Positions 1-12,535 of a DNA stretch of 12,535 bases are shown piece after piece (position 1 is the first letter of the stretch; each line of letters opens with the position of its first letter). A program made the translations under genes and the position numbers. The notes under the pieces are model-generated. The model saw only the letters and a list, made by a program, of their open reading frames with translations, did not search any database and had not been told where the DNA came from. Where the stretch lies: positions 1 to 12,535 of the forward strand of contig JALVYZ010000199.1 of NCBI GenBank assembly GCA_027037705.1, written 5' to 3'. This DNA comes from a bacterium (lineage in GTDB: Bacteria > DYJV01 > JALVYZ01).

Positions 1-2015
1 AGATTCTGTTGTTTTAAATCAATTAAATAATGCTCTATTTTTTCAACATCATTTTCTGTAAATTTTTTCATCCTCAAATCATTTAAAATTCCTGTTTCAT
101 TAACAAGTTTTTTTAAAGATTTAAATTTTTCATTTGCAAGCTCTTTGTCTTTATGTAAGGCTGTGTTATATTCCTGAATTTTCTCCTGAAGTTTTAAATA
201 TTTATCAAATAGATTTCCTTTTTTTATTACAGGAGTTAAATGGGATAAGATTATTCCTCTTCCTCTTCTTTTTGCCTGAATTGCTTCTCCAATATCATCT
301 ATAATATATGGGTATAACAGAGGAATATCCTGCATTAAAAAGTCACCATTATCCCAGTAAATTGTTCCAGCCTGTTTTCCTGGCATCCATTCATGAGTCC
401 CATGTGTCCCAAGATTTATAAGACAATCTGCCCTAAATATTTTTTTAAGCCACAGATAAACTGCAATATATTGATGATGGGGAGGAAGAGTAACATCATG
501 ATACATTTTTATTGGGTCCTGTCCCCAGCCTCGTGAAGGCTGTGGTAAAATTATTACATTTTTGCTAATTTTAACCATTGGAATTATGAAATTTCCTTTA
601 TATACCATTATTTTGCTATCTTCAGGCTTTCCCCATTTTTTATAAACAGGTTCAATAAAATTGTAAGGAACATTTTTTATCCATTTTTTATACTCTGAAA
701 TTGGGAGTAACACCACTTTATTTGATTTAACAAGTTTTTCAATTTCTCCTGGTGCATAATTTCCAACATTTCTACCAGACAAAAGCATCTCTTTTTTTAA
801 TGTTTCATAATCAAGTTTTATATTTTTCGGTATACTATATCCTTTTTCTCTAAGTTTATTTAAAATTACAGAAAGAGATTTCATCACATTTAAATAACTT
901 GCACCTATGTTTTGTTTTCCAGGATGATGGTTGTAATAAATTATTGCAATTTTTTTATCTTTATTTGGTTTAATTTGAAGTTCGTGCATCTTTTTGATTC
1001 TTTTAATCAAATAGTCAACCTGATAATCTATCATTCTTGAAATATAGATATATTTTTTCAAATCAGAATCATAAATTTTTTCTTTTGACCCAATAACAGT
1101 AGGCTCAATTAATCCACCAAGTTCAGGCAATGATATTTGAAAAGACACTTCAAAAGGAGTTAATCCAATATCTGAAATTTCCCATTGTTCTTTTGAACTT
1201 TGAAAAAGAGAGATTGCGTTGTAAACAGGGACATTTAGCTCTTTTAAAGTATTTTTCCCTTTTTCATCTAAAGAAGCAGAAAATTTAAATGATATTCCAA
1301 TAATTGCTGAAATTTTAACTTTCTTTCCAAGATAAAATTTTCTCACTCCTATATAATCTGGAAAACTGTATGAAACAATAACATTTATTCCAGCCTTTTC
1401 AAATCTCTTTACAATTTCTGATATTAAACCATCATTGACCATAGGTTTATAATAAGTTATTCCAATCCAAAATCCATTTGGATTATAGTGTTTTGAATTT
1501 TTATACCATTTCAGGTAATCTTTTGTTGAAGTGAAAATTTTATCACTATCAGGATGAGCTAAAAACGCTTCTGGTATATTAACAGGTGGAGAAAATTTTC
1601 CATATAAAACATATTTTAATAAATTTTCTGTGTTTTTAAGGCATGGAAAACTGAAATATTGAATAATTTTATTGTCATAAATCAATTTTCTGTTTGTTTT
1701 TCTTGATGCTCCACCATTTACACTTCTCAATGAATAAATCTTACAGCTATCAGGCAAAATTTTAAAAACATTAAATACAGAAGCATACATTGTATCCACC
1801 AAAAAAATTTTATACTCTTTTAAGTCTTCTTTTTTTAAATTATTAAAATCTTTTCTTACAAAAAAGGTTACTTTGTTAGATAAATTGAGTTTTTTAATTG
1901 CTTTTGAGAGAACCCGAGAATAAGGTTCTCCTATTAAAAAAGCAATTTTTTGATTATTGGCAGAAAGATTTATTAAAAAACATAGAAAAAAGACATGAAA
2001 GAGAATTCTTTTCAT
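1..2015 (-). CDS. CobN/HmuS-like chelatase large subunit, exported form, C-terminus beyond the window
   Basis: The first 671 codons are in the window and the reading frame is open to the left edge; CobN proteins are usually about 1200-1300 residues. The family signature is clear: L-I-N-L-G-T-H-G-T-H-E-W-M-P-G-K-Q at residues 532-548, and YYNHHPGKQNIGASYLN further upstream. The start ATG overlaps the TGA of the 126-residue gene (ATGA), implying translational coupling. The N-terminus MKRILFHVFFLCFLINLSA looks like a signal peptide, which classical cytoplasmic cobaltochelatase CobN lacks. No CobS/CobT-type ATPase partner is seen. Linkage to an ExbB-like and a DUF2149 protein matches the hmu arrangement, where the CobN-like HmuS is reported to take metal out of haem. 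Under a B12 riboswitch the likely substrate is a corrinoid. Insertion versus removal of metal cannot be decided from the sequence. Confidence 0.9.
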   Translation of the reverse strand, partial: MKRILFHVFFLCFLINLSANNQKIAFLIGEPYSRVLSKAIKKLNLSNKVTFFVRKDFNNLKKEDLKEYKIFLVDTMYASVFNVFKILPDSCKIYSLRSVNGGASRKTNRKLIYDNKIIQYFSFPCLKNTENLLKYVLYGKFSPPVNIPEAFLAHPDSDKIFTSTKDYLKWYKNSKHYNPNGFWIGITYYKPMVNDGLISEIVKRFEKAGINVIVSYSFPDYIGVRKFYLGKKVKISAIIGISFKFSASLDEKGKNTLKELNVPVYNAISLFQSSKEQWEISDIGLTPFEVSFQISLPELGGLIEPTVIGSKEKIYDSDLKKYIYISRMIDYQVDYLIKRIKKMHELQIKPNKDKKIAIIYYNHHPGKQNIGASYLNVMKSLSVILNKLREKGYSIPKNIKLDYETLKKEMLLSGRNVGNYAPGEIEKLVKSNKVVLLPISEYKKWIKNVPYNFIEPVYKKWGKPEDSKIMVYKGNFIIPMVKISKNVIILPQPSRGWGQDPIKMYHDVTLPPHHQYIAVYLWLKKIFRADCLINLGTHGTHEWMPGKQAGTIYWDNGDFLMQDIPLLYPYIIDDIGEAIQAKRRGRGIILSHLTPVIKKGNLFDKYLKLQEKIQEYNTALHKDKELANEKFKSLKKLVNETGILNDLRMKKFTENDVEKIEHYLIDLKQQN

Positions 2016-2392
2016 TTGGAAGAAGTCCAACCATCAGGCATTCTAATCTTAGCCTCAGTCTTTTCTGGATGTTTTTCAAGATGTTTATATTTTTTATAAG
2101 CCTGTTCTGCTAATTTTTCCAATAAATGAGGTAAATCAGAATTTGTCCATTTTTCATTTAATTCAGAAATAATTCTATCTGAAATTTTATAATATGGTGG
2201 GTTTTCAGGATTAAAAATAATATCATCTTCTTCTATATCTAATTCTTTTTCAAGAATATTTTCAAGTAGTTTAACAACTGATAATTCAAATGTATTTACA
2301 ATATCTTCAATATGTTCAGCTTTATTTATTTTTTCTCTGAATTCTGGAATTATTTCATCATATTTTCTTGTAAAGGATAACATTTTTTCCAT
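2012..2392 (-). CDS. Unrecognised 126-residue soluble protein coupled to the cobN-like gene
   Basis: I do not recognise this family. The protein is charged and mostly helical in appearance, with no signal peptide or membrane segment, so it is probably cytoplasmic. It has an acidic middle (ELDIEEDDIIFNPENPPYY, about residues 50-68) and a Lys/Glu-rich C-terminal helix ending in MPDGWTSSK. The start is well supported: a strong Shine-Dalgarno AAAGGAGGG lies a few bases upstream of the ATG. The stop overlaps the start of the CobN-like gene by ATGA, so the two are likely made together. A role as an accessory or regulator of the chelatase/channel complex is only a guess from position. Confidence 0.8.
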   Translation of the reverse strand: MEKMLSFTRKYDEIIPEFREKINKAEHIEDIVNTFELSVVKLLENILEKELDIEEDDIIFNPENPPYYKISDRIISELNEKWTNSDLPHLLEKLAEQAYKKYKHLEKHPEKTEAKIRMPDGWTSSK

Positions 2393-2425
2393 AAATTCCC
2401 TCCTTTCAACTTTTTTATACTCCTA

Positions 2426-2431
2426 ATTATA
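2426..2431 (-). promoter_or_regulatory. Possible internal -10 box (TATAAT) ahead of the 126-residue gene
   Basis: A perfect TATAAT on the minus strand lies 34 nt before the ATG, in the 70-nt gap after the DUF2149 gene. At 17 nt upstream there is no recognisable -35 (CATTTT). In DNA this AT-rich such a box occurs easily by chance, so an internal promoter is only possible. Confidence 0.2.
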
Positions 2432-2462
2432 ATATAAGAAAGTTTTTTAAAATGAAAACAGA

Positions 2463-2795
2463 TTATTTTTCTGGAATATAAATAATTCTACCATCTTTTA
2501 AACGATAGGCAGTGCCTAATTTCTCACCTTCACCTTTGCCAATTTTTCCTGTTACTTTATATGCTTTTATTACTTTTCCTTTTTTTATAATAATTTCATA
2601 TTTCCCATTTGGACTCTTTTTCATAATTGTTATTTCAGATTTTTCATTAAAAAAATCCTGTAAATGGTAAACACTCATTAATGCAAGGAGAAGGCTTACT
2701 ACAAAGACAAGTCCAATATCAAATAGATTTGCCACTCCACTTAAAGGGTCCTCTGTCACAGTTAATGAAAATCTTCGTTTTTTTAAAAATTTCAT
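2463..2795 (-). CDS. DUF2149 family protein, probable ExbD-like stator partner
   Basis: This 110-residue protein has a short basic cytoplasmic N-terminus, one membrane helix (about residues 22-46) and a small C-terminal domain outside the membrane. The DPLSGVANLFDIGLVF block and the C-terminal LGTAYRLKDGRIIYIPE match my memory of DUF2149. The topology is that of ExbD/TolR, and Asp26 at the start of the helix (F-D-I-G-L-V-F) lines up with the proton-carrying Asp of ExbD (D-V-M-L-V-L). I infer that it replaces ExbD as partner of the ExbB-like protein encoded upstream. The start is set by an in-frame stop five codons upstream. No Shine-Dalgarno is visible: the ATG is preceded by an AC-rich hexamer array. 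The gap from the ExbB-like gene is 188 nt, the largest between genes from btuB onward. Confidence 0.85.
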   Translation of the reverse strand: MKFLKKRRFSLTVTEDPLSGVANLFDIGLVFVVSLLLALMSVYHLQDFFNEKSEITIMKKSPNGKYEIIIKKGKVIKAYKVTGKIGKGEGEKLGTAYRLKDGRIIYIPEK

Positions 2796-2804
2796 AATTA
2801 TTAA

Positions 2805-2834
2805 GTGTTAGTGGTGGTGTTGGTGTTAGTGTTT
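2805..2834. repeat. Hexamer tandem array upstream of the DUF2149 gene
   Basis: Five units on the plus strand with consensus GTGTTA: GTGTTA, GTGGTG, GTGTTG, GTGTTA, GTGTTT. The transcribed (minus) strand is rich in CAC/AAC. The array begins 10 nt before the ATG and fills the space where a ribosome binding site would sit. Confidence 0.75.
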
Positions 2835-2841
2835 TTTCGTC

Positions 2842-2897
2842 TCACGAACCATGAGCCACGAACCACGAATCACGAATCACAAATCCTCAATCCCCAT
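2842..2897. repeat. Heptamer tandem array (YCACGAA) between the exbB-like and DUF2149 genes
   Basis: Eight 7-base units in perfect register: TCACGAA, CCATGAG, CCACGAA, CCACGAA, TCACGAA, TCACAAA, TCCTCAA, TCCCCAT. The first six are close copies and the last two are decayed. No spacers are present, so this is not CRISPR. It carries no open reading frame of note. Confidence 0.85.
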
Positions 2898-2960
2898 TTC
2901 CATACAAAACCAACATAGATATTTCAAATTCTGCATTAAATAAACAAATAAAATTAACTC

Positions 2961-2995
2961 CTTTAACCTTCAACCTTCCGCCTTCAGCCTTGTTT
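2961..2995. repeat. Heptamer tandem array overlapping the end of the exbB-like gene
   Basis: Five 7-base units: CTTTAAC, CTTCAAC, CTTCCGC, CTTCAGC, CTTGTTT. The units cover the stop codon (2984-2986) and last codons of the exbB-like gene. On the minus strand the distal end merges with an AAAGGAG (2958-2964) that has no start codon at a normal distance. Confidence 0.7.
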
Positions 2996-3610
2996 TTGTT
3001 TAAACACAACCTCAGTAAAAAGTTCAATATTTTTCATATCCTCTTGAGTCCATCTTTCTTTTATAACTGCAAAAAAGTAAGCCATTGCTCCAATTGCAAG
3101 CCCAACAACAGTTGTAGTAAAGGCAATAATTAAACTTGACGATAATTTGTTTATATCACCGGAACTTAAAGATGCAAGTCCAGTGCCCATCGGAATTAAT
3201 GTTCCCATTAGCCCAAGACTTGGTCCCATTCTAACTGCAATTTTTATTTTATCAACCTCTTTCTGCATCTTTAATTCTTTTTCCTGAAGTAAATTTTCCA
3301 CTTTAATTTCAATTAAATTATTTTTTTCATTTAATAAAATTTTATTCAACTTTTTAAAATAATTTACAACATTTACAGTGAAGTAATCAAATAATTCCTC
3401 TGGAATTTGACCAGAATTTATCACTCTGTCAATTAAATCATTTGAATTTACAATTTTTTTAAGTTTTTTTCTTTCAATCCATTCTGCAAAAACAATCCCT
3501 CCCTGATACAGAATCCAGCATATTAAGACAACAAGAAAGAACATTACAGGGATTAACAGAGAAGAGGAAATAACATAAATTATTGTCTGTAAAAACGCTT
3601 GAAATTGCAT
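2984..3610 (-). CDS. MotA/TolQ/ExbB family proton channel protein
   Basis: This 208-residue inner-membrane protein has three predicted helices (about 12-40, 126-150 and 158-184) and a long charged cytoplasmic loop between the first and second. That is the ExbB/TolQ layout. The second helix carries GPSLGLMGTLIPMGTG (129-144) and the third FTTTVVGLAIGAMAY (164-178); the family's conserved pore-lining Thr and small residues are present. It should form a proton-driven motor with a single-helix partner, here most likely the DUF2149 protein, because no ExbD or TonB is seen. The start is 8 nt after the DUF2162-type gene, with an AGGAT ribosome binding site overlapping that stop. Its own stop lies inside a heptamer array. 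It could energise the TonB receptors, but the cluster type suggests service to the CobN-like protein. Confidence 0.9.
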   Translation of the reverse strand: MQFQAFLQTIIYVISSSLLIPVMFFLVVLICWILYQGGIVFAEWIERKKLKKIVNSNDLIDRVINSGQIPEELFDYFTVNVVNYFKKLNKILLNEKNNLIEIKVENLLQEKELKMQKEVDKIKIAVRMGPSLGLMGTLIPMGTGLASLSSGDINKLSSSLIIAFTTTVVGLAIGAMAYFFAVIKERWTQEDMKNIELFTEVVFKQKQG

Positions 3611-3618
3611 ATTTAATC

Positions 3619-4314
3619 CTATTTTTTCAATTTATATTTCATAAATCCGGAAGCAATGATTAAGATAAAACTAAAAAAGAAAATAGAATTTTTTTTATAA
3701 AATTCCAAACCCTGAGAATAACTGTATGAAGAAATTCTAAAAATTCTGTCAATATCAGAAAAAACTGGAGCAACTATGTATGTAACAATAAAATAAACTC
3801 CCATCATTATTAAGCTCATACCAAGGAATGTTTCTGGTCTCGTCTTGAAAATTTTTACTATGAATCCAGTTATAACTTGAAATCCTATAAAAGCAAAATA
3901 AAAGTAAATAGTGTATTTTATGCTATAATTACCAATAAATTTGTATAAAAAAGCTATACTTAATAAAATTACTAAAAAGCAAAAAGGACAGGGCATTGTT
4001 AATAAAAGATATGCTTTTGTGTCTTTACTGTCATTTAATAACACTTTTATTCCCCAGATAAACATTCCAGAAGCAAGAATAAAGTGAATTAACATTCCTT
4101 TTTTTAAAAAAGCCTCAAAAATTGTAAAATGTTTTATAAAATCAAAATATTTAATTATGTAATAATTTGTTAAAAATACTCCTAAATAGGCTATAAAAAT
4201 AAAAGTTATCTGTCTTAATCTATTTTTAGATACAATGTAGGCCATTCCAATTCCTGATTTTATTGCAAATATGCCAGATGTAAATAAAATCCCAATTATT
4301 AATGTCTTAATCAT
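3619..4314 (-). CDS. DUF2162-type polytopic membrane protein, putative transporter
   Basis: The protein has 231 residues and about six to seven hydrophobic helices. I assign it to DUF2162 by overall pattern: the N-terminal helix with K-S-G-I-G (residues 19-23), the Pro/Cys block MPCPFC (107-112), and neighbours that recur with this family in methanogens and some bacteria (ExbB-like, DUF2149, CobN-like). The family has been likened to LysE-type exporters. C109 and C112 form a CxxC inside or at the edge of a membrane helix, a plausible site for metal binding or redox chemistry. The start overlaps the end of the BtuF-CbiZ gene by 8 nt, so the two are translationally coupled. Cobalt or corrinoid-fragment transport is inference from context. 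Confidence 0.75.
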   Translation of the reverse strand: MIKTLIIGILFTSGIFAIKSGIGMAYIVSKNRLRQITFIFIAYLGVFLTNYYIIKYFDFIKHFTIFEAFLKKGMLIHFILASGMFIWGIKVLLNDSKDTKAYLLLTMPCPFCFLVILLSIAFLYKFIGNYSIKYTIYFYFAFIGFQVITGFIVKIFKTRPETFLGMSLIMMGVYFIVTYIVAPVFSDIDRIFRISSYSYSQGLEFYKKNSIFFFSFILIIASGFMKYKLKK

Positions 4315-6283
4315 GGTTAATTATCCCATAAAGAATTCCATCAATACATCTATCAATTATAAATGGAAAATCTGTTTCTTTGAAATTTTTAACATTTTTG
4401 AATTTTTTCTTGCTAATTTTTTCAGCAACAAATTTTACTTCATTATTAATAAAGTTTTTGCCAGTTAAATTAGCTTCATAATCATCAGAAACCGCAAAGC
4501 ATTGTTTTAAAAAATCACTGTATTCTGGATTTAATAATACATTGTCAAGTTCAAGCATTGCTTCTTTTAAAGATATATTTTTCCTGTATTTTTTTATTAT
4601 TTTAGCAAGGTCAAATAATCTTATGTTTCTTTCTTTTAATCTTTGTAAAATGTTTCTATTTGAAACTATTCTATTTTGCTTTAAAATCGCTTCTTTTACC
4701 CCTTTGTAAACTAATTTTGATAAAATTTCTGCAAATTTTGTATGTCCGCCAGCAACATTTTTTTTTCTGCCATTTCCTGAAACAATGATAATATTATCTG
4801 TGCCAGTGCCTGTAGCCTGATACTTTGCTCTCTGATATGAGCTTCTTATGTCAAGGTCTTGTAATGCTTCTGTTTTTGCTTCTGTAATAGTTATTATACT
4901 TCTTGCCATTGCCCTCTCGGTTAAATTTAAATTTGTAAGAACTATAATATTTATTGTCCCATGATTAATATACATTCCTCTGTCTTTTGAAATTCTCATT
5001 GCATTTGAATTTACACCTGCTGTAATATAGGTTGCAATTTTTATGTCTTTAAATTTTGCAAAATTTATTGCAATATTGTCCATATTTGCACCAGTATAAA
5101 GAAGAGAGGAATTTTTTAATGTAATTCCTAAAGCTTCTGCAACCTCTTTTTTAAATTCTTTAAAATTTTTATGCGCTTCATTCCAGCGAGGTGGCACAAG
5201 ATAATGATTTCCAATATATTTTACAGTTCTGAAACCTTCAAGTGTTGATAAAATTTTTTGAGGTTTTTTAAATTCAATTAAAAGGGTTTTATGTGGAAAA
5301 TCATTAATTATCCCGTAAATTAATTCAGTATTTTTTACAAAATCAAAATAGTTCTCTAAATGCTTTCTTTTTATTATCTTATGTTTTGTGATTATATTTT
5401 CTTTTTTGAAAAAATAATCTCCATAAATAGATGCACTTAACCATTGAATAAAATAACCTGTGAGTTCAGAAGGTCTGCATGTTAAAATACAGGGGAAAGT
5501 GTATATTTTATGATTTTTTATTGCGTTTACATCCCTCCACTTAGGTTGAGAAAAGAAACCTTTTAAATAATTTTTATCATTTCCACAAACATAGATAAAA
5601 TCTGGATTAAATTCTTTCCATTCCTTTAATGATATTTTGTATATTTCACTATTAGTTTTAGGAATAAATGGAATTCCACCTGATTTTTTTATCACATCTA
5701 ATTGAAAAGAATCTCTTCCTGGCACGAATCCTCTTCCCATTACTCTAATAACTCTTCTTCTTTTATTTTGGGGAATAAATCTTAGTTTTCCTTGAATTAA
5801 GGCAATTTGGGATTTCATTTTTCTTATTAATTCTTCTGCATTTTTTTGTTTGTTAAATAAATTTCCCAAAAATTTAATATTTTTGTATATATCATTTATA
5901 GAATGAGCTTCCATTGTGATAATTTTTACTCTGTTTTTAAAATGATTAATAAGGTTTTTATGGAATTTTGAGCAAAAAATTAAATCAGGGTGCAATTTTT
6001 CTATTCTTTTTATGTCTGGTGCAAAAAATCCTCCAACAATTGTCTTTTGAGTGGCTTCAAATGGATATGTGTCATGATATGTAACTCCAACAATTTTATC
6101 TCCAACTCCAAGAGCAAAAAGAATCTGCGTTGTTGTAGGATCAACAGATACTATTCTTCTGTATTGATTGGCGAATAAAGAAATTGAAAAAAATAAAATT
6201 AATATGAAAACAAAGGCTAAAGGTAGAAGGGGGAAGACTAAAAAATTTTTAAATTTTTCTTTTTTAAATATAAAATTTTTCAT
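4307..6283 (-). CDS. BtuF-CbiZ fusion: exported corrinoid-binding protein with an adenosylcobinamide amidohydrolase domain
   Basis: The protein has 658 residues. Residues 15-37 are strongly hydrophobic and end at SLFA-NQ, a signal peptide or membrane anchor. Residues 42-285 are a BtuF/TroA-type binding domain (RRIVSVDPTTTQILFALGVG, then GGFFAPDIKRIEKLHPDLIF). Residues 320-540 match CbiZ: TAGVNSNAMR (421-430), ITEAKTEALQD (466-476), ATGTGTDNIIIVSG (490-503) and GGHTKFAE (512-519). CbiZ cleaves the amide bond of the nucleotide loop of pseudo-B12 or adenosylcobinamide to give cobyric acid and is normally cytoplasmic; here it follows an export signal. Residues 545-658 are an extra region I do not recognise. 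The Shine-Dalgarno AGGAG is the last unit of a heptamer array. Together with the riboswitch this points to periplasmic corrinoid capture and trimming. Confidence 0.9.
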   Translation of the reverse strand: MKNFIFKKEKFKNFLVFPLLPLAFVFILILFFSISLFANQYRRIVSVDPTTTQILFALGVGDKIVGVTYHDTYPFEATQKTIVGGFFAPDIKRIEKLHPDLIFCSKFHKNLINHFKNRVKIITMEAHSINDIYKNIKFLGNLFNKQKNAEELIRKMKSQIALIQGKLRFIPQNKRRRVIRVMGRGFVPGRDSFQLDVIKKSGGIPFIPKTNSEIYKISLKEWKEFNPDFIYVCGNDKNYLKGFFSQPKWRDVNAIKNHKIYTFPCILTCRPSELTGYFIQWLSASIYGDYFFKKENIITKHKIIKRKHLENYFDFVKNTELIYGIINDFPHKTLLIEFKKPQKILSTLEGFRTVKYIGNHYLVPPRWNEAHKNFKEFKKEVAEALGITLKNSSLLYTGANMDNIAINFAKFKDIKIATYITAGVNSNAMRISKDRGMYINHGTINIIVLTNLNLTERAMARSIITITEAKTEALQDLDIRSSYQRAKYQATGTGTDNIIIVSGNGRKKNVAGGHTKFAEILSKLVYKGVKEAILKQNRIVSNRNILQRLKERNIRLFDLAKIIKKYRKNISLKEAMLELDNVLLNPEYSDFLKQCFAVSDDYEANLTGKNFINNEVKFVAEKISKKKFKNVKNFKETDFPFIIDRCIDGILYGIINHD

Positions 6284-6293
6284 TGTTTTTTAC

Positions 6294-6328
6294 TCCTGAC
6301 TTCAGACTTTAGACTCCCAACTAAAAAC
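6294..6328. repeat. Heptamer tandem array over the btuB stop codon
   Basis: Five 7-base units: TCCTGAC, TTCAGAC, TTTAGAC, TCCCAAC, TAAAAAC. The array spans the btuB stop (6321-6323) and most of the 37-nt gap. Its first unit, read on the minus strand, supplies the AGGAG ribosome binding site of the BtuF-CbiZ gene. It has the same period and placement as the array at 2961-2995 but a different unit sequence. Confidence 0.65.
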
Positions 6329-8324
6329 TATAATCAACTGAAACATAAAAACTCCTTCCCTCAAGAGGATAATACGGAGTTTTTGGTACATTGTATCCAT
6401 TTGCATAAGCATACATATCCTGTTCATTTGTAAAGTTTTTGACTGTAAAACTTAATCTCAACTTTTTTGAAATTGAATAGACCATCCCTGTATTAAATAT
6501 TGTATAATCATTGTAGTAATAATATCCACCATCATCAAAATAATTTTTTCCAATTTTATTTCCATCAATCCAGTAAGAAAATTTATTCAAATTTAATTGA
6601 AGTCTTGCATAAATTGAATTTTCTGGCCTGTTAGGTAATGGTTTATTGTTTTTATATCCAGTTTGGTGTGATTTTGAATCAATTTCTGTATAGTTGAGTG
6701 CAAAATTTATTAATTTAAAATTTAAATTAAATAGAATTTCATATCCTTTAATTTCTGCATTTTCAATATTTTTGTATTTAGAGTATCTTTCATTAACCAT
6801 TATAAATTCTATTAAATCTTTCACTTTATTTTTAAAAAAAGTCATATCTCCAGAAATATTAAATGGATAGTTTTTAAAATTATAGTTAAAACCAAATCCA
6901 AAATCTTTATTTCTACTAAATTCTGGTTTTAATGATTCATTCGCTAATAGAGTAGCTCCATCTCCGAATTTTTCATAGAAATTTGGGAACCTATAATATT
7001 GGCCATAATTAAATTTTAAGTATGGATTTAATTTTTTAAAAATTGGCAGAAAATATTTTAGTCCAATAGATTTTGAGCCTTTATTATAATGAGATTTCAA
7101 ATTAGTTATTTTATTTTTATCAATAATTCTATTTTTTCTATATACAGGTTCAATTATTAAAGATTTTTTAAGAAAATAGAATTTGTTAGAAAAGGTTAAA
7201 TCTAACTCATTTCTATAATAACTTGAATCTTTTAAATAAGATAAATTAGGAGAGAACTTGGTTTTTAAATTTTCAAAATTTTTTGAAAGATAAAATTTTA
7301 TATTTAAAAAATTATTTTTTTTATATTCAAAAGATAAATTTAATCCTCTTTTTCTCGTATAATATTTTGATTTTAATAAACCATACATTCCAAGTGCAAA
7401 TTTAGGATTTTTAAAATATTTTCTTTCTCTTCCATAATAAGTCTGAAAACTAAAAATAGCATTTTTGATTGAAAAAGTGTCTGAGAATTCAATTTGATTT
7501 TTTATTCTATTAAAAGAAGCATCTGTATCAGTTTCAGGGGTATCCCTGCCTGGAGCAGCACCAGGTAATTCTTTGTGTTTATAAAAGTGTCTGTATGTTA
7601 GATTTACAATAGAATTTTTAAATGATTTTGATAAATTGTATAAAACATTCTTTTGATGATAATAATTGTTTCTCCTATGTGCATGGTAATCATCAGTATC
7701 ATTGAACGGTGTGTTTGCATCATTATAGTATGGGTAATCTCCTTTTCTTGTTTCAAATCCTATGTTTAAAAAGTTGTTAAAATTTTTAATATTCAAATTT
7801 AAATTACTTTCTGTCTGGAAAAATTTAAAACTTCCATAAGTTGCTTTAAAATTCATTCTTTTTGTTTTTTTCTTAGTAATAATGTTGATAACACCACCAA
7901 TTCCGGCTCTTCCAAATTGAGGTGGTATATTACCTCTATAAATTTCAATTTTTTTTATGTCTTCTACAGGTATACTACTTAAATCAACAGAAGATTCTCC
8001 ACCACTGTTAACAAGAATACCATCAACATATACAAGAACCTGAGAAGAAGTACTTCCTCTTATTGAAATAGTAGTATATGATCCCCTTCCTGCGAGATTT
8101 GTTACATGAACTCCAGGTATAGTTTCAAGCAGTTCTCCAACTGTTTTCTCCTCAAATTTGCGTTTTTCTACATTTATTATAGTTTTAGTATAAGGAGATT
8201 TTTCAGAGGAAGTTTTAATTTTTGTAGATTTTACAACAATTTCAGGAACCAGATAGAAGTTTTCAGCGTATATATTGGTAAGTATAAATAGAAAGAAAAT
8301 TATCTGAATAATTATAATCTTCAT
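6321..8324 (-). CDS. btuB: BtuB-like TonB-dependent outer-membrane receptor for corrinoids
   Basis: This is a full-length 667-residue receptor. The signal peptide ends at NIYA-E (residue 20) and a TonB box EIVVKS follows at 28-33. The plug domain runs from about 40 to 155, with VGELLETIPGVHV, ISIRGSTSSQVLVYVDGILV and FGRAGIGGVINIIT. The rest is a beta-barrel rich in alternating aromatic residues, ending in the outer-membrane signature VSVDYSF with terminal Phe. The Shine-Dalgarno AAGGA lies 8 nt from the ATG, directly after a terminator hairpin. Substrate assignment rests on the upstream cobalamin riboswitch and the BtuF-CbiZ gene 37 nt downstream; the barrel alone would not separate cobalamin from other large metal complexes. 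Confidence 0.88.
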   Translation of the reverse strand: MKIIIIQIIFFLFILTNIYAENFYLVPEIVVKSTKIKTSSEKSPYTKTIINVEKRKFEEKTVGELLETIPGVHVTNLAGRGSYTTISIRGSTSSQVLVYVDGILVNSGGESSVDLSSIPVEDIKKIEIYRGNIPPQFGRAGIGGVINIITKKKTKRMNFKATYGSFKFFQTESNLNLNIKNFNNFLNIGFETRKGDYPYYNDANTPFNDTDDYHAHRRNNYYHQKNVLYNLSKSFKNSIVNLTYRHFYKHKELPGAAPGRDTPETDTDASFNRIKNQIEFSDTFSIKNAIFSFQTYYGRERKYFKNPKFALGMYGLLKSKYYTRKRGLNLSFEYKKNNFLNIKFYLSKNFENLKTKFSPNLSYLKDSSYYRNELDLTFSNKFYFLKKSLIIEPVYRKNRIIDKNKITNLKSHYNKGSKSIGLKYFLPIFKKLNPYLKFNYGQYYRFPNFYEKFGDGATLLANESLKPEFSRNKDFGFGFNYNFKNYPFNISGDMTFFKNKVKDLIEFIMVNERYSKYKNIENAEIKGYEILFNLNFKLINFALNYTEIDSKSHQTGYKNNKPLPNRPENSIYARLQLNLNKFSYWIDGNKIGKNYFDDGGYYYYNDYTIFNTGMVYSISKKLRLSFTVKNFTNEQDMYAYANGYNVPKTPYYPLEGRSFYVSVDYSF

Positions 8325-8335
8325 TTTTGATCCTT

Positions 8336-8364
8336 AAAAAGCTCCCCACAAGGGGAGCTTTTTT
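8336..8364 (-). terminator. Rho-independent terminator between the propeller gene and btuB
   Basis: The stem GCTCCCC (8341-8347) pairs with GGGGAGC (8352-8358) around a 4-nt loop, with A and T runs on both sides, so it can also work in the other direction. On the minus strand it begins at the stop codon of the propeller gene, and its T run leads straight into the AAGGA ribosome binding site of btuB. No promoter fits between it and btuB, so it probably acts as a partial terminator inside the operon. Confidence 0.85.
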
Positions 8365-9826
8365 AATAGTTATAGTCAGTTCCTATTTTATATGGAGGAT
8401 AACCAAGTTGTTCATCAGAAATTTTATAAATATTTCCAGCTTTATCAATTAATACAAGAGCTCCAGGTTCAATTATTTCTTTTACTTCTTTTGTTTTATA
8501 ATCAATATCAGCTTTTCCTCTATCTGCAAGAACAATATAACCACAAATATAATCAATATCAGAAATATATGATGATGCACTGTAAACAGTGGTAGTTATT
8601 AATCCATTCTTAGTAGAGTCATCATAAGTATTTATGTTTAATATTTTATACACATTGTATGGAGAACCCCAACTACCATTTGTTACTAAATAAACTTCTC
8701 CATTAGGAGTTATCTCAAAATTTTTTATATATTCTGTTGTATTATCAGAATTTACTATTGGTGAGATCTTGAAATTTTGGTCTACAGACATATTTGCTAA
8801 ATCAATTCTATATATTTTTCCAATTGGATTTGAATAATCTCCCATGGATAAAAAATATAATTTATCATTATAAACTTGTAGACTTCGAGGAGAATAATCA
8901 ACTAAAATGGAATTTTCTATCTGGTCTGTATCAGTATTAATTACTAAAATTAAACTTTTGTCAGGTTGAACATCTCCATAATATGTTCTTGCTCGATCTA
9001 AAGATACAAAAAGTTTATTTTTATAAATCACCATATGCTCTGCACCAACATATTTGTTTTTGGAACCATTGTCAGCAACATATAAATAAGGAGTCAAATC
9101 AATTGAATCTAACTCTTCTCCAGTTAAAGGATTAAAAATTAATATACTATTATCAAAGTAAGTTGTTAAATATGCTTTTTTTAAATTTTTAAAAGCAATA
9201 CTATGAGGATTTTGTCTTTGAATATTATAGTTAGCAATTAATTGATTGTTTGAATTTTCGTTAAAATTACTAAATCCTGTTTTATAAACATAAAAAGTTG
9301 AAATCCCTCCAGTATTAGGAGCATCAACAACAAAAGTATAACCATCAAAGTAATAACTTCTAATATCTCCACCTAATGGAACTTGATTTAAATTTTTATG
9401 TGGTCCATCTGTTGCTATTACTGAAAAGCCACCAGTTTGATAATTATACGACTCTGTTACAATTGGAATATAATTAGCTGGACAATAACCTTGAATATTT
9501 AATTTTTTATTACCTGTTGCATAAACAACAAAACTTTCCCCTTGATAAATAGTGTATAATTTTTGGTATCCTGCATCTTCCAATGTTGACATTAAATTTT
9601 CATCTCTTGCCCAAACAGCCCAATTTTGAGGGGTGAGATCAAAACTTGATCCATCTCCAATGTACTTTATCAATCCTAAAATATTTTCATCATCAAATTG
9701 GTTCATTGTAATTTGATTGTCCTGTGCTCCATAAAAATTCCAACCTGGATGTAAATTAATATTCTGGGAGAAAGAGATAGAAGTAAATAAAAATACCCCT
9801 ACTAATGCAAGTAAAATTTTTTTCAT
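8363..9826 (-). CDS. Secreted beta-propeller-like protein, possible BtuG-type corrinoid-binding protein
   Basis: The protein has 487 residues. A signal peptide MKKILLALVGVFLFTSISFS is followed by Q; there is no lipobox Cys, so it should be free in the periplasm or secreted rather than a lipoprotein. Residues 24-120 form a small N-terminal domain opening with LHPGWNFYG. From about 130 on, repeated strands of the kind KNKLFVSLDR, NDKLYFLSMG, NGEVYLVTNG and CGYIVLADRG suggest a YncE-like beta-propeller. It is the first gene after the cobalamin riboswitch and directly precedes btuB. In Bacteroides the B12-binding surface lipoprotein BtuG is also a propeller paired with BtuB, so a cobalamin-binding role is a reasonable inference, but I see no specific BtuG motif. 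The start is backed by GGAGG 8 nt upstream of the ATG. Confidence 0.85.
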   Translation of the reverse strand: MKKILLALVGVFLFTSISFSQNINLHPGWNFYGAQDNQITMNQFDDENILGLIKYIGDGSSFDLTPQNWAVWARDENLMSTLEDAGYQKLYTIYQGESFVVYATGNKKLNIQGYCPANYIPIVTESYNYQTGGFSVIATDGPHKNLNQVPLGGDIRSYYFDGYTFVVDAPNTGGISTFYVYKTGFSNFNENSNNQLIANYNIQRQNPHSIAFKNLKKAYLTTYFDNSILIFNPLTGEELDSIDLTPYLYVADNGSKNKYVGAEHMVIYKNKLFVSLDRARTYYGDVQPDKSLILVINTDTDQIENSILVDYSPRSLQVYNDKLYFLSMGDYSNPIGKIYRIDLANMSVDQNFKISPIVNSDNTTEYIKNFEITPNGEVYLVTNGSWGSPYNVYKILNINTYDDSTKNGLITTTVYSASSYISDIDYICGYIVLADRGKADIDYKTKEVKEIIEPGALVLIDKAGNIYKISDEQLGYPPYKIGTDYNY

Positions 9827-9832
9827 TTTAAT

Positions 9833-9911
9833 AACCTCCTAAATTTTTTATTTCCGGAGGTTGATTGGAGGTAAAAAATAGAAATGAATATGCTTTCCTC
9901 CAACCCCCCGG
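9833..9911 (-). promoter_or_regulatory. Riboswitch expression platform: alternative pairings over the ribosome binding site
   Basis: The Shine-Dalgarno strand GGAGGTT (9833-9839) can pair perfectly with AACCTCC (9856-9862). That same strand, extended as CAACCTCCGG (9854-9863), can instead pair with CCGGGGGGTTG (9901-9911), leaving one bulge and one G-U. A third option, TTGGAGG (9897-9903) with CCTCCAA (9865-9871), competes with the second. No T run follows, so control is probably at translation start of the propeller gene. Confidence 0.65.
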
Positions 9912-9921
9912 GAGTTTTATT

Positions 9922-10265
9922 CTTTTGCAGGCCAGGTATTCCGCCTCGTCAATGACGCACTTACTTAAGAGATAATTAAAAAAAGCTTCATAAAGCGTTA
10001 CAATTTCCTCTTAAAGTAAGTGCGTCAGGAACCTGATTTTTATCTCTGCCTTCCCAGTGTGCGAGCTTCGTACCCTACACACCAGTGACAGAGAATCAGG
10101 TTCTCCCCGAGCACCTGGAGGATGAATAATCATTAAAAGAATGAATTTCTTTCTTAATAAAAAGTTCAATACTTCTTAAAAATTTCTCTTCCACCAGGTG
10201 CTCGGTTGACTCACGGCTGCGGGGCCAGGGTGGGATTTTCACCCACTTCCCTGAACCTGCAAAAG
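9922..10265 (-). ncRNA. Cobalamin riboswitch aptamer
   Basis: On the minus strand P1 is a perfect 10-bp stem: CTTTTGCAGG (10256-10265) with CCTGCAAAAG (9922-9931). The 5' core has AGGGAAGTGGGTGAAAATCC and CCCCGCAGCCGTGA. The P4-P6 part has CACTGG...CTGGGAAGG, and the 3' side has the B12-box-like GGAATACCTGGCCTGC. These are hallmarks of the cobalamin aptamer. Two arms are greatly extended: a 12-bp stem CCGAGCACCTGG/CCAGGTGCTCGG (10107-10118 with 10194-10205) closing a 75-nt AT-rich loop, and a 19-bp stem (9953-9971 with 10008-10027) closing 36 nt. It is GC-richer than its surroundings. It should repress the downstream operon when B12 is plentiful. Confidence 0.95.
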
Positions 10266-10280
10266 CTCACTTAACAGAGT

Positions 10281-10309
10281 TTTTTAAAAAAATCAATACA
10301 AAATTTCAA
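10281..10309 (-). promoter_or_regulatory. Probable promoter of the riboswitch operon
   Basis: The minus strand has a -35 TTGAAA (10304-10309), a 17-nt spacer and a -10 TAAAAA (10281-10286). The start would fall near 10274, about 9 nt before P1 of the aptamer, which is the expected place. The -10 is weak, and transcription reading in from the decayed binding-protein gene is also possible because I see no terminator between them. Confidence 0.4.
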
Positions 10310-10400
10310 TGAATAATCTTTTGTTATTGTTGAAGATTTTTGCATTAACATTAAAAACATCTTTAATTAATTTGTTATCAATTATTGATTTATCACCATA
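10293..10400 (-). pseudogene. Third-frame coding remnant downstream of the decayed binding-protein gene
   Basis: Just past the TGA of the binding-protein remnant, the frame shifted by +1 stays open for 35 codons (YGDKSIIDNKLIKDVF to NNNKRLFIEILY) with ordinary codon use. The YGD after an LIFP-like stretch and the K-x-L-x-I-E pattern loosely resemble the BtuF-to-CbiZ junction of the fusion protein in this window (IYGDYFF at 286-292; HKTLLIEF at 331-338). That suggests a shifted, partly deleted tail, possibly the start of a lost CbiZ part. The similarity is weak, and the operon promoter overlaps its end. Confidence 0.3.
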
Positions 10401-11216
10401 ATGGGAATATTAAATAAACATTTTTATTTTTATATGCTTTTAATGTTAAATATCTTTCTTTGTATTTTTGAAAATTTGCCTCAATTATTGGAAGTGAAGT
10501 TTTGTCTATAAAAATTATATCTGGATCCCATATGTATAAATCTTCCCAATTTACAAATATATGCCCTTTTAATTTTGAATAATTAGCTACATTTATAACA
10601 TTTATTAAATTTGCTGGATAAAAATCTGTATCAGTGCTTGTTAAATCATGTAATCCTTTATAAGCAATTCCTCCAATATAAACTTTTTTCTTATTTTTGA
10701 CATATTTTGTTCTCTGTTTTAGATCAATAATCATGTTATTAATGAATTTAACTAATTTTTCTGCTCTGTTTTCTTTATTAAAAATTTTCCCAAGTTTTAG
10801 AAGAGAAACTAAAAATTCGTTATTTAAACTTCCGAGAGTTCCATAATTTAACAATACAACTTTTGTGTTAGTTTTTTTCTCAATTAAATCAACTTGAGCT
10901 TTTGTATATCCAACTGCAATAATTATATCAGGACGAATAAGATTAATTCTTTCAAAATAGGGTAAAACTCCTGGTCCTCCTTCTGTAATTACTGGTAAAT
11001 TTTTAATATTTTTTTTATTTTAATTGAGTACGGTCTTATTAATCCAGTTCTTAATTTAAATTCTATATTTTCAACCCCACATAACTTATTTTCAAGATTC
11101 ATATATACAATAAATCTCAATGCTCCTGGACAAATAGCAATAATTTTATTATATTTGGCAAAAAGAGAAAAACATAATAATTGTAAAATAAAAATTATTT
11201 TTAAAATTTTTTTCAT
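10393..11216 (-). pseudogene. Frameshifted periplasmic binding-protein gene (BtuF/FepB-like)
   Basis: The gene starts at ATG 11216 with a signal peptide ending SLFA-K, then IIAICPGALRFIVYMNLENK and LRTGLIRPYSI, typical of ABC-type metal-chelate binding proteins. That frame stops at 10989. The next frame continues the same protein without loss: NIKNLPVITEGGPGVLPYFE, then RPDIIIAVGYTKAQVDLIEK, down to NVYLIFPLW and a TGA at 10393. The frames join at a run of eight A (11009-11016 as T on the plus strand); a -1 shift there restores one product. The end is also short, since a normal protein would continue another 40-60 residues. No Shine-Dalgarno is visible before the ATG. It is most likely a pseudogene; slippage at the A run or a sequencing error could explain the first break but not the short end. 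Confidence 0.75.
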
Positions 11217-11509: not shown

Positions 11510-12535
11510 ATGAAAAAGTATTTTTTTATTATTTTTTTGTTGATTCCTTTGTCTTTAGTTGGAGAAAATTTTTATTCCTTACAAGAAATTAATATAAAAG
11601 CGAAATTAATAAAATCTGCAAAACAAAAAGGAGATACTTTATTTACAGGTATAAGTCTTGACAAAAACAGTTTAAAATTATCTGGAGAAGGTGGTAAAAA
11701 TAGCGTTTATAAAGCAATATCTATTTTGCCAGATGTAAATCTTGATAATGATGATCCATTTGGTTTATCAGATAAGAGATTAAGGATAAGAGGCACATCT
11801 GATTATTTTATTGGAATTACTGTTGATGGAATCCCAAATTATGGAATAATGCCAATAGGACCAAGAGACTATATTTATGATGTTGAAAATTTTGATAAAA
11901 TCAAAGTCTATCCTGGAGCAACCCCTTCTGATTTAATGACAGGTTCAGGAAATAGAGGAGGAGCAATTGAAATAAAAATAAAAGAATCTTTAGATAAACC
12001 ATCTATTAGTTTTAACCAGGATATTGGAGCGTTTTCATATTCTAAAACTTATTTAAGATTTGATTCTGGAAAAATTTTTAAAAATGGTCCAAAATTTTTT
12101 ACTTCATTCTCCTATACTGATGCTGACAAATGGAAAGGAGAAGGGAAATTAGGCCCGAGAAAAAACTTTTCTTCAGAATTTTCACATAGTTTTAAAGATA
12201 TTATAAATATGAAGTTTTTTGTAAATTACAATTCTATTAGTAGGCATCTTTTTAAAGGTTTAACCTATAATGAAATAAAAAATTTACATAAATATTACTA
12301 TCATGATTTTAATGATATAAAAAATACTTTTGATTATTATGGTTACAATAAATTTGATGCAATTAATAGAGATTATTTTGGTATTGTTAATTTTAAAATT
12401 AATAATAATCTATCTTTATCAGTTAAACCTTATTATTCAAAAGAGAATAATACAAAATATGAAAAGGGATTTTCTTTTTATGATTGGAAAACTCAGAAGA
12501 CAAAATATTTTATTCTAAATAAAATTAATAATTCC
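11510..12535 (+). CDS. TonB-dependent outer-membrane receptor, C-terminal part beyond the window
   Basis: The first 342 codons are present and the frame is open at the right edge. A signal peptide (MKKYFFIIFLLIPLSLVG) is followed by a probable TonB box QEINIKA (about 25-31). The plug has VYKAISILPDVNL, KRLRIRGTSDYFIGITVDGI, FDKIKVYPGATPSDLMTGSG and RGGAIEIKI, then barrel strands begin. The start is fixed by AAAGGAGG 9 nt upstream. It is transcribed away from the decayed binding-protein gene and shares with it the 28-nt leader element, so the two probably served the same substrate. That substrate is unknown: this leader has no cobalamin aptamer, and the plug differs clearly from the btuB product in this window. 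Confidence 0.9.
   Translation, partial: MKKYFFIIFLLIPLSLVGENFYSLQEINIKAKLIKSAKQKGDTLFTGISLDKNSLKLSGEGGKNSVYKAISILPDVNLDNDDPFGLSDKRLRIRGTSDYFIGITVDGIPNYGIMPIGPRDYIYDVENFDKIKVYPGATPSDLMTGSGNRGGAIEIKIKESLDKPSISFNQDIGAFSYSKTYLRFDSGKIFKNGPKFFTSFSYTDADKWKGEGKLGPRKNFSSEFSHSFKDIINMKFFVNYNSISRHLFKGLTYNEIKNLHKYYYHDFNDIKNTFDYYGYNKFDAINRDYFGIVNFKINNNLSLSVKPYYSKENNTKYEKGFSFYDWKTQKTKYFILNKINNS

Follow-up and report, generated by a model that had tools for sequence, protein, structure and literature searches.

An exported CobN-like protein and a predicted proton channel in a cobalamin-riboswitch operon: a candidate corrinoid version of the hmu haem operon

The window analysed here, a stretch of 12,535 nucleotides, is the entire contig JALVYZ010000199.1 (C199) of a bacterial genome (G000) of 2.05 Mb in 496 contigs, 92.8% complete. 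It carries an operon headed by a cobalamin riboswitch and encoding corrinoid-capture proteins, an ExbB-like/DUF2149 pair and an exported CobN-like protein. An earlier note, made from the sequence alone, had named these genes and taken them for a corrinoid version of the hmu haem operon; in our searches every one of them was found in its place on the minus strand. In operon order the features are:

9922–10298, minus strand: cobalamin riboswitch leader (RF00174 match 10298–10176; closing stem 10265–10256/9931–9922)
8363–9826, minus strand: exported BtuG-like beta-propeller (weak PDB matches; signal peptide without a lipobox Cys)
6321–8324, minus strand: BtuB-like TonB-dependent receptor (PF07715, PF00593)
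4307–6283, minus strand: exported BtuF-CbiZ fusion of 658 residues (PF01497 and PF01955 in a single frame, signal peptide)
3619–4314, minus strand: DUF2162 membrane protein in the place of HmuT (PF09930, E 1.1e-34)
2984–3610, minus strand: ExbB-like proton-channel subunit, HmuU counterpart (PF01618, E 1.3e-11)
2463–2795, minus strand: DUF2149 protein, ExbD-like HmuV counterpart (PF09919, E 3e-31)
2012–2392, minus strand: orphan of 126 residues (signal peptide absent; overlaps the CobN-like gene by 4 bases)
3–2030, minus strand: exported CobN-like (BtuS-type) protein (PF02514, E 1.3e-136; ATG start at 2015)

The intergenic gaps, taken 5′ to 3′ along the operon, are 38, 37, −8, 8, 188, 70 and −4 bases, so that the joints are short or overlapping, as had been noticed, except for the 188 bases before and the 70 bases after DUF2149. 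BtuC, BtuD, CobS and CobT are indeed absent from the gene content of the window, and a scan for sigma-70 promoters and terminators gave results at chance level. The only near relative in the genome collection is a single genome, G001, which belongs to the same taxonomic order and is represented by locus L045.

The riboswitch match scores 34.7 bits, above the Rfam gathering cut-off of 31.5. This low score is due to Infernal closing the aptamer too early, which in turn is caused by long imperfect hairpins in the variable arm. In the folded leader, several long hairpins are enclosed by a perfect stem of 10 bp, CUUUUGCAGG/CCUGCAAAAG (10265–10256 with 9931–9922; z = −11). Since this stem closes around the hairpins, the element measures about 370 nucleotides rather than 123, and the riboswitch (9922–10265) is unusually large. 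On contig C124 of the same genome, 231 bp of the leader recur at 91% identity (L037, 2616–2946), ahead of the gene for a porin-like outer-membrane protein (422 residues, cut); the B12 regulon of this organism may therefore include a porin.

Downstream of the leader lie the capture genes. The only PDB matches of the propeller are 8bai, 8baz and 3DSM, the last of which is the structure entry of apo-BtuG2; all three fall in the same place, over about 190 residues, and are weak (E 2.5–2.8e-4). A lipobox cysteine is missing from its signal peptide, MKKILLALVGVFLFTSISFSQ, so that the protein does not qualify as a surface lipoprotein of the BtuG kind. A single-sequence fold of the propeller was uninformative (predicted local distance difference test, pLDDT, 41) and was left unused, and no second copy was found elsewhere in G000. 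The top NCBIfam match of the receptor is TIGR01779 (TonB-B12), at 155 bits, under the cut-off. The fusion protein combines a BtuF-like binding-protein domain (PF01497, E 2.7e-26, residues 44–264) with a CbiZ adenosylcobinamide amidohydrolase domain (PF01955, E 1.5e-49, residues 337–529) behind one signal peptide, which confirms the exported BtuF-CbiZ recognized earlier. Another BtuF-like binding protein is encoded immediately before the riboswitch (10393–11216, minus strand), but a single frameshift within an A-rich stretch breaks its gene into two frames, either through decay or through a fault of the assembly; a second TonB-dependent receptor (11510–12535, plus strand) diverges from the operon and is cut by the contig end.

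A survey of genomes for riboswitch-linked clusters had been proposed, and we scanned GTDB contigs with the DUF2149 profile. This returned 46 loci, mostly from Desulfobacterota and Nitrospirota, and in 23 of them a B12 riboswitch lies directly upstream of the cluster in the same direction (RF00174, or RF01482 in L090), in three of the 23 as a tandem pair. This systematic link supports the view of the cluster as a B12-regulated relative of the hmu S-T-U-V module. At L047 and L084 a riboswitch is present in the other direction, and six loci with upstream sequence have none (L050, L053, L064, L078, L082 and L085); many of the remaining loci are cut by contig ends. A simple pattern search for riboswitches missed known ones in controls, and no absence is claimed for the plasmid loci. 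A distant closed genome found separately, G261, adds the order riboswitch-BtuB-exported CbiZ-DUF2162-ExbB-DUF2149-CobN, and G001 has one riboswitch before TonB receptor-CobN and a second before DUF2162-ExbB-DUF2149. Exported CbiZ or BtuF-CbiZ occurs in at least nine loci, as exported fusions in L046, L054, L055, L076 and L080 (twice) and as exported CbiZ alone in L072, L081 and L040; the CbiZ of L071, as called, has no clear signal peptide at its start.

Other genes also join these clusters. Two anammox operons with tandem B12 riboswitches encode, in place of an exported CbiZ, an exported DUF4430 protein between BtuB and CobN (L058, 3440–3892; L067, 4510–4905), a domain that we take to resemble the C-terminal domain of transcobalamin. 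Exported CbiK stands under a B12 riboswitch in L039 of G001 (5228–8846), together with a TonB receptor, and in L049 (294–1501), a Desulfobacteraceae metagenome-assembled genome, as the first gene of the CobN operon.

The CobN-like gene is cut by the contig end, and the window holds the first ~676 of ~1,300 residues. By hydropathy these begin with a signal segment, and they are 57–59% identical to a complete homologue of 1,317 residues that bears a C-terminal anchor. With the exception of the 5′-incomplete L083, every CobN-like protein encoded in these clusters starts with an N-terminal hydrophobic stretch, and those that are complete have a C-terminal anchor, whereas cytosolic CobN has none. 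The closest solved structure is that of HmuS (9d26), which with the same partners takes iron out of haem and is marked by a Met-rich insert, Met79, His254 and His1209/Glu1212 (PMC12583661). As in the HmuS operon, the exported protein of the window is accompanied by a small membrane protein in the T position, an ExbB-like U and a DUF2149 V. Of these marks of HmuS, we compared the insert, His254 and His1209/Glu1212 with the exported homologues; the window copy ends before the stretch of the Met-rich insert and before the LSLDHxxEFMGG and D-D-x-x-Q motifs.

From GTHG to PTGRN the distance is 210–248 residues in 31 exported homologues, against 323–510 in three HmuS proteins from Hmu operons, and the Met-rich domain IV insertion of HmuS is absent, as judged on the nearest complete homologue, that of L045 (215). 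The haem ligand His254, present in all three HmuS, is Phe in the window and Phe, Leu, Met or Tyr in its relatives. In place of the HmuS motif LSLDHxxEFMGG, the relatives have Asp at 1209 (Gly in one) and mostly Gln at 1212; most complete relatives carry LDNDDFFQY, the D-D-x-x-Q of CobN (as in 7c6o and 9uk9), with A or M at the last position in some. The window and nearly all corrinoid-linked members also share GTHGTHEW, whose second His is Leu or Ile in HmuS and the cytosolic members, and Gln in three exported members outside the group (L082, Runella and Pseudoalteromonas). In a maximum-likelihood tree the three HmuS group together in a single clade; the window copy belongs to a set of 14 rows of the exported family, supported at 100%. 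A haem identity as HmuS is rejected by residues, tree position and gene content. CobN of the CobNST type is cytosolic and soluble and has a linked CobS/CobT or ChlI/ChlD motor; neither feature was found here. The protein does agree with BtuS as quoted from the original proposal, namely a CobN-related protein tied to B12 elements and distinct from CobN and ChlH, as seen from the riboswitch census and the tree. Thus, on sequence grounds, the corrinoid-linked CobN-like proteins are neither HmuS nor cytosolic CobN.

The partners of the CobN-like protein are strongly conserved at a few positions. In DUF2149, Asp26 at the membrane segment is invariant in 36 homologues, and in the ExbB-like protein Pro130, Thr137 and Thr165 are invariant in 37; together these residues are consistent with a predicted proton channel, in keeping with HmuU and HmuV being termed ExbB- and ExbD-like (PMC10100974). 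DUF2162 is predicted to be an all-helical membrane protein (pLDDT 86), and its His77, Trp87 and PCPxC are invariant in 30–33 homologues. It is not recognizable as HmuT: neither hhalign nor fold comparison gave a convincing match to NicO/HmuT, and its middling Z-scores to halves of the major facilitator superfamily are meaningless for helical bundles. The orphan of 126 residues has no significant family match and no relative among the surveyed loci.

Metal transporters are found next to the module in several genomes. At L053 a NicO permease adjoins the receptor in place of DUF2162. On plasmid pRUNSL01 of Runella slithyformis (L138, 2887–10921), exported CobN-ExbB-DUF2149 and a TonB receptor sit within hydrogenase maturation genes (hypB-hypF...hypC-hypD-hypE), with a NicO-like permease at the DUF2162 place; this cluster is possibly a nickel version of the module. 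These two are the only NicO swaps seen. CbiQO follows CobN in L052 and L041, and CbiMNQO adjoins the operon in L051 and L065. Since nickel permeases replace DUF2162 in two clusters and cobalt transporters of the ECF type adjoin others, metal is favoured as the cargo crossing the inner membrane, and the pattern favours a predicted release and import of metal.

We have also checked the carrier genomes for other corrinoid genes, since a standard BtuCD and CobST set, or B12-synthesis genes, would bear on what the operon does. G000 has a single CobN-family gene. Its sole FecCD-family match was considered as BtuC and rejected, being a ZnuB-type permease beside a ZnuC-type ATPase; BtuC is therefore missing, as far as this 93% complete genome shows. 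In the other 25 carrier genomes, a strong FecCD permease is found in 14, and the remaining 11 gave a weak match or none, so the earlier claim that the channel stands instead of BtuCD holds in G000 and fails as a general rule. The synthesis genes CbiD, CbiE, CbiG, CbiA, CbiB, CobD and BtuR are present, as are a cytosolic CbiK and B12-binding mutase-type subunits; CobU and CobS gave no match in this incomplete genome and are adjacent to each other in G001. The organism thus appears to be an anaerobic B12 producer in which a late cobaltochelatase is not needed, and with these genes and a cytosolic CbiK the CobN-like protein would be dispensable for B12 synthesis. A ChlI/ChlD-like AAA+/VWA pair is present on contig C59 (L125, 9216–11152), unlinked to the operon, with 55–57% identity for the ChlI-like protein. 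Its context is conserved in G001 (contig C167; L126, 5774–7722), and no ChlH or CobN lies beside either pair. Being unlinked and presumably cytosolic, without access to the periplasm, the pair is an unlikely partner. In G261 (L127, 174–11231), the operon of the exported CobN is preceded, at a distance of a few kb, by BtuFCD, a cytosolic CobN and ChlI/ChlD, and this genome therefore combines an ATP-type and a proton-type version.

From these observations we propose a B12-repressed periplasmic corrinoid-processing machine, a corrinoid counterpart of hmu that most likely removes cobalt; in our judgement the case for this reading is evenly balanced. By homology, the propeller and BtuB would deliver corrinoids to the periplasm. 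There the exported BtuF-CbiZ, whose two domains are observed, would bind the corrinoid and cut its nucleotide loop to give a cobyric-acid-type corrinoid, and loop removal outside the cytoplasm would leave the lower axial face of the cobalt exposed. The membrane-anchored CobN-like protein would then bind the ring. CobN and ChlH require an ATP-driven AAA+ partner (PMC7689651), which an exported CobN could not use; a proton-driven stator would thus be a natural substitute, and the observed gene set suggests that ExbB-like/DUF2149 drives the CobN-like protein in place of the CobST/ChlID motor. By analogy with HmuS and from the transporter swaps, the CobN-like protein would labilize and remove the cobalt, DUF2162 or an adjoining Co/Ni transporter would import it, and the freed metal would feed the anaerobic B12 synthesis of G000 itself.

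Several points weigh against this proposal. Corrins bind metal tightly, and Ni-corrins have been described as exceptionally stable to metal removal (PMC7693184). The BtuC-type permease of 14 of the 25 carriers makes corrinoid import possible there. In Dehalobacter, corrinoid starvation switches on a cytosolic CobN/ChlID/CbiZ operon (PMC4285132); the strain has no corrinoid biosynthesis under these conditions, and the pattern fits salvage better than destruction. The NicO swaps number only two, DUF2162 has no link to NicO by sequence or fold, and ChlI/ChlD-like genes do exist in G000.

The strongest alternative is import and remodelling without demetallation, in which the CobN-like protein would be a periplasmic corrinoid carrier energized by ExbB/DUF2149, DUF2162 would stand in for BtuCD and carry the loop-less corrinoid inward, and the cell would rebuild its own cobamide. 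The lack of BtuC in 12 of 26 carriers, the all-helical prediction for DUF2162 and the Dehalobacter data (PMC4285132) agree with it, and exported CbiZ together with CbiB, CobD and BtuR in G000 would fit. However, the system is retained in carriers with BtuC, ion permeases of the NicO type occupy the DUF2162 place in two clusters, the homologous HmuS is a dechelatase rather than a carrier (PMC12583661), and G000, an incomplete genome, gave no match to CobU or CobS. We therefore consider this explanation rather unlikely, if still a serious one.

A periplasmic insertion or exchange of cobalt, in which the CobN-like protein would load metal-free or wrongly metallated corrins, either for repair or with environmental corrin serving as a cobaltophore, is improbable in our view. 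The D-D-x-x-Q motif is shared with cobalt-inserting CobN, CobNST chemistry runs toward insertion (PMC7689651), and exported CbiK stands in the L049 operon and beside a receptor in G001; yet the nearest precedent of known function that has these partners works in the opposite direction, no export gene for a metal-free corrin was seen, and the permease neighbours indicate inward metal traffic.

That the protein is a standard cobaltochelatase of the late-insertion kind, with the ChlI/ChlD-like pair of contig C59 as its motor, is very improbable. That G000 and G001 both have this pair, and that G000 has just one CobN, would speak for it; the exported and anchored CobN-like protein is, however, out of reach for a cytosolic AAA+ motor, G000 has anaerobic CbiD/E/G and cytosolic CbiK, and in neither genome is the pair linked. 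With the protein exported and an early-insertion CbiK pathway in the genome, the CobNST reading is rejected. Hardly credible is a plain haem-iron hmu system bearing its B12 riboswitch by chance, for although HmuS is the best solved-structure match and the ExbB/DUF2149 partners are in common, BtuB, BtuG-like proteins, CbiZ and B12 riboswitches recur, HmuY is absent, His254, His1209 and Glu1212 are unconserved, and the family lacks the Met-rich insert and forms a separate clade.

The cobalt-removing machine proposed above has several known relatives. With hmuYRSTUV of Bacteroidota (PMC12583661, PMC10100974, PMC13227078) it shares an exported, anchored CobN-superfamily protein, a small membrane T, an ExbB-like U, a DUF2149 V and a TonB receptor; it differs in its B12 riboswitch, its BtuB/BtuG-like/BtuF-CbiZ front end and DUF2162 for HmuT, and its family in having no HmuY, no Met-rich insert, other active-site residues and a separate clade. 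BtuS, a third and B12-regulated type of CobN, was proposed in 2003 (Rodionov et al., as quoted in PMC6460266). In B. fragilis, loss of btuS1 alone did not significantly impair growth on haem iron, in contrast to btuS2 (PMC6460266), and Hmu-like operons with cobalamin riboswitches were noted in Bacteroides/B. fragilis in 2023 (PMC10100974). As far as the quoted account of BtuS extends, these share with the window the third CobN type, the cobalamin riboswitch and a proposed role in metalloporphyrin salvage or cobalamin metabolism, while the window differs in that its CbiZ is part of an exported fusion with BtuF and the genome lacks BtuC; the lineages differ as well, being Desulfobacterota, Nitrospirota, Planctomycetota and the isolated lineage of the window. 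On Trichlorobacter (Geobacter) lovleyi pSZ77, a CobN without CobS/CobT was reported in 2012 among TonB genes and cobalamin clusters, its role unassigned by the authors (PMC3403914). This cobN-exbB-exbD-tonB cluster (L136) has TonB receptor-DUF2162-ExbB-DUF2149-CobN beside cobT/bzaF; unlike the window, it contains no CbiZ and includes TonB-ExbB-ExbD energizers. Operon-2 of Dehalobacter restrictus (PMC4285132) likewise has a CobN-family protein and CbiZ under a cobalamin riboswitch, and the cytosolic set of G261 a CobN-family protein with BtuFCD; in both, CobN is paired with magnesium-chelatase-type ATPase subunits, whereas the CobN-like protein of the window is exported and has a predicted proton channel instead.

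The suggestion that such a system was not yet described does not survive these precedents, namely BtuS of 2003 as relayed in PMC6460266, the T. lovleyi plasmid (PMC3403914) and the Bacteroides operons (PMC10100974). In the literature searched we found no paper on the exported BtuF-CbiZ, the residue fingerprint, the permease swaps or the mechanism, no mention of DUF2162, five papers mentioning DUF2149, and no report of enzymatic cobalt removal from a corrinoid. As a tentative extension, a single proton-driven periplasmic module (a CobN-type S, a permease T, an ExbB-like U and a DUF2149 V) may have diversified by metal, for haem iron (hmu), corrinoid cobalt (the B12-riboswitch operons) and nickel tetrapyrroles (the hyp-linked cluster with NicO); the cobalt branch, acting after exported CbiZ, would then be the first system known to remove cobalt from corrinoids, a view that we hold to be possible though clearly short of probable.

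Taken together, the system is real, widespread and in part predicted earlier. What becomes of corrinoids in the environment is an active question in microbial ecology, and the set is found in Desulfobacterota, Nitrospirota, anammox planctomycetes and Geobacter-type bacteria. Since cultured carriers exist (Trichlorobacter thiogenes and T. lovleyi SZ), testing by gene deletion is possible. The fingerprint described here (GTHGTHEW; D-D versus D-H) tells corrinoid-type from haem-type members, which are now mostly annotated as cobaltochelatase CobN, and the general idea on offer is that of a chelatase that would draw its energy from the proton gradient instead of from an AAA+ ATPase.

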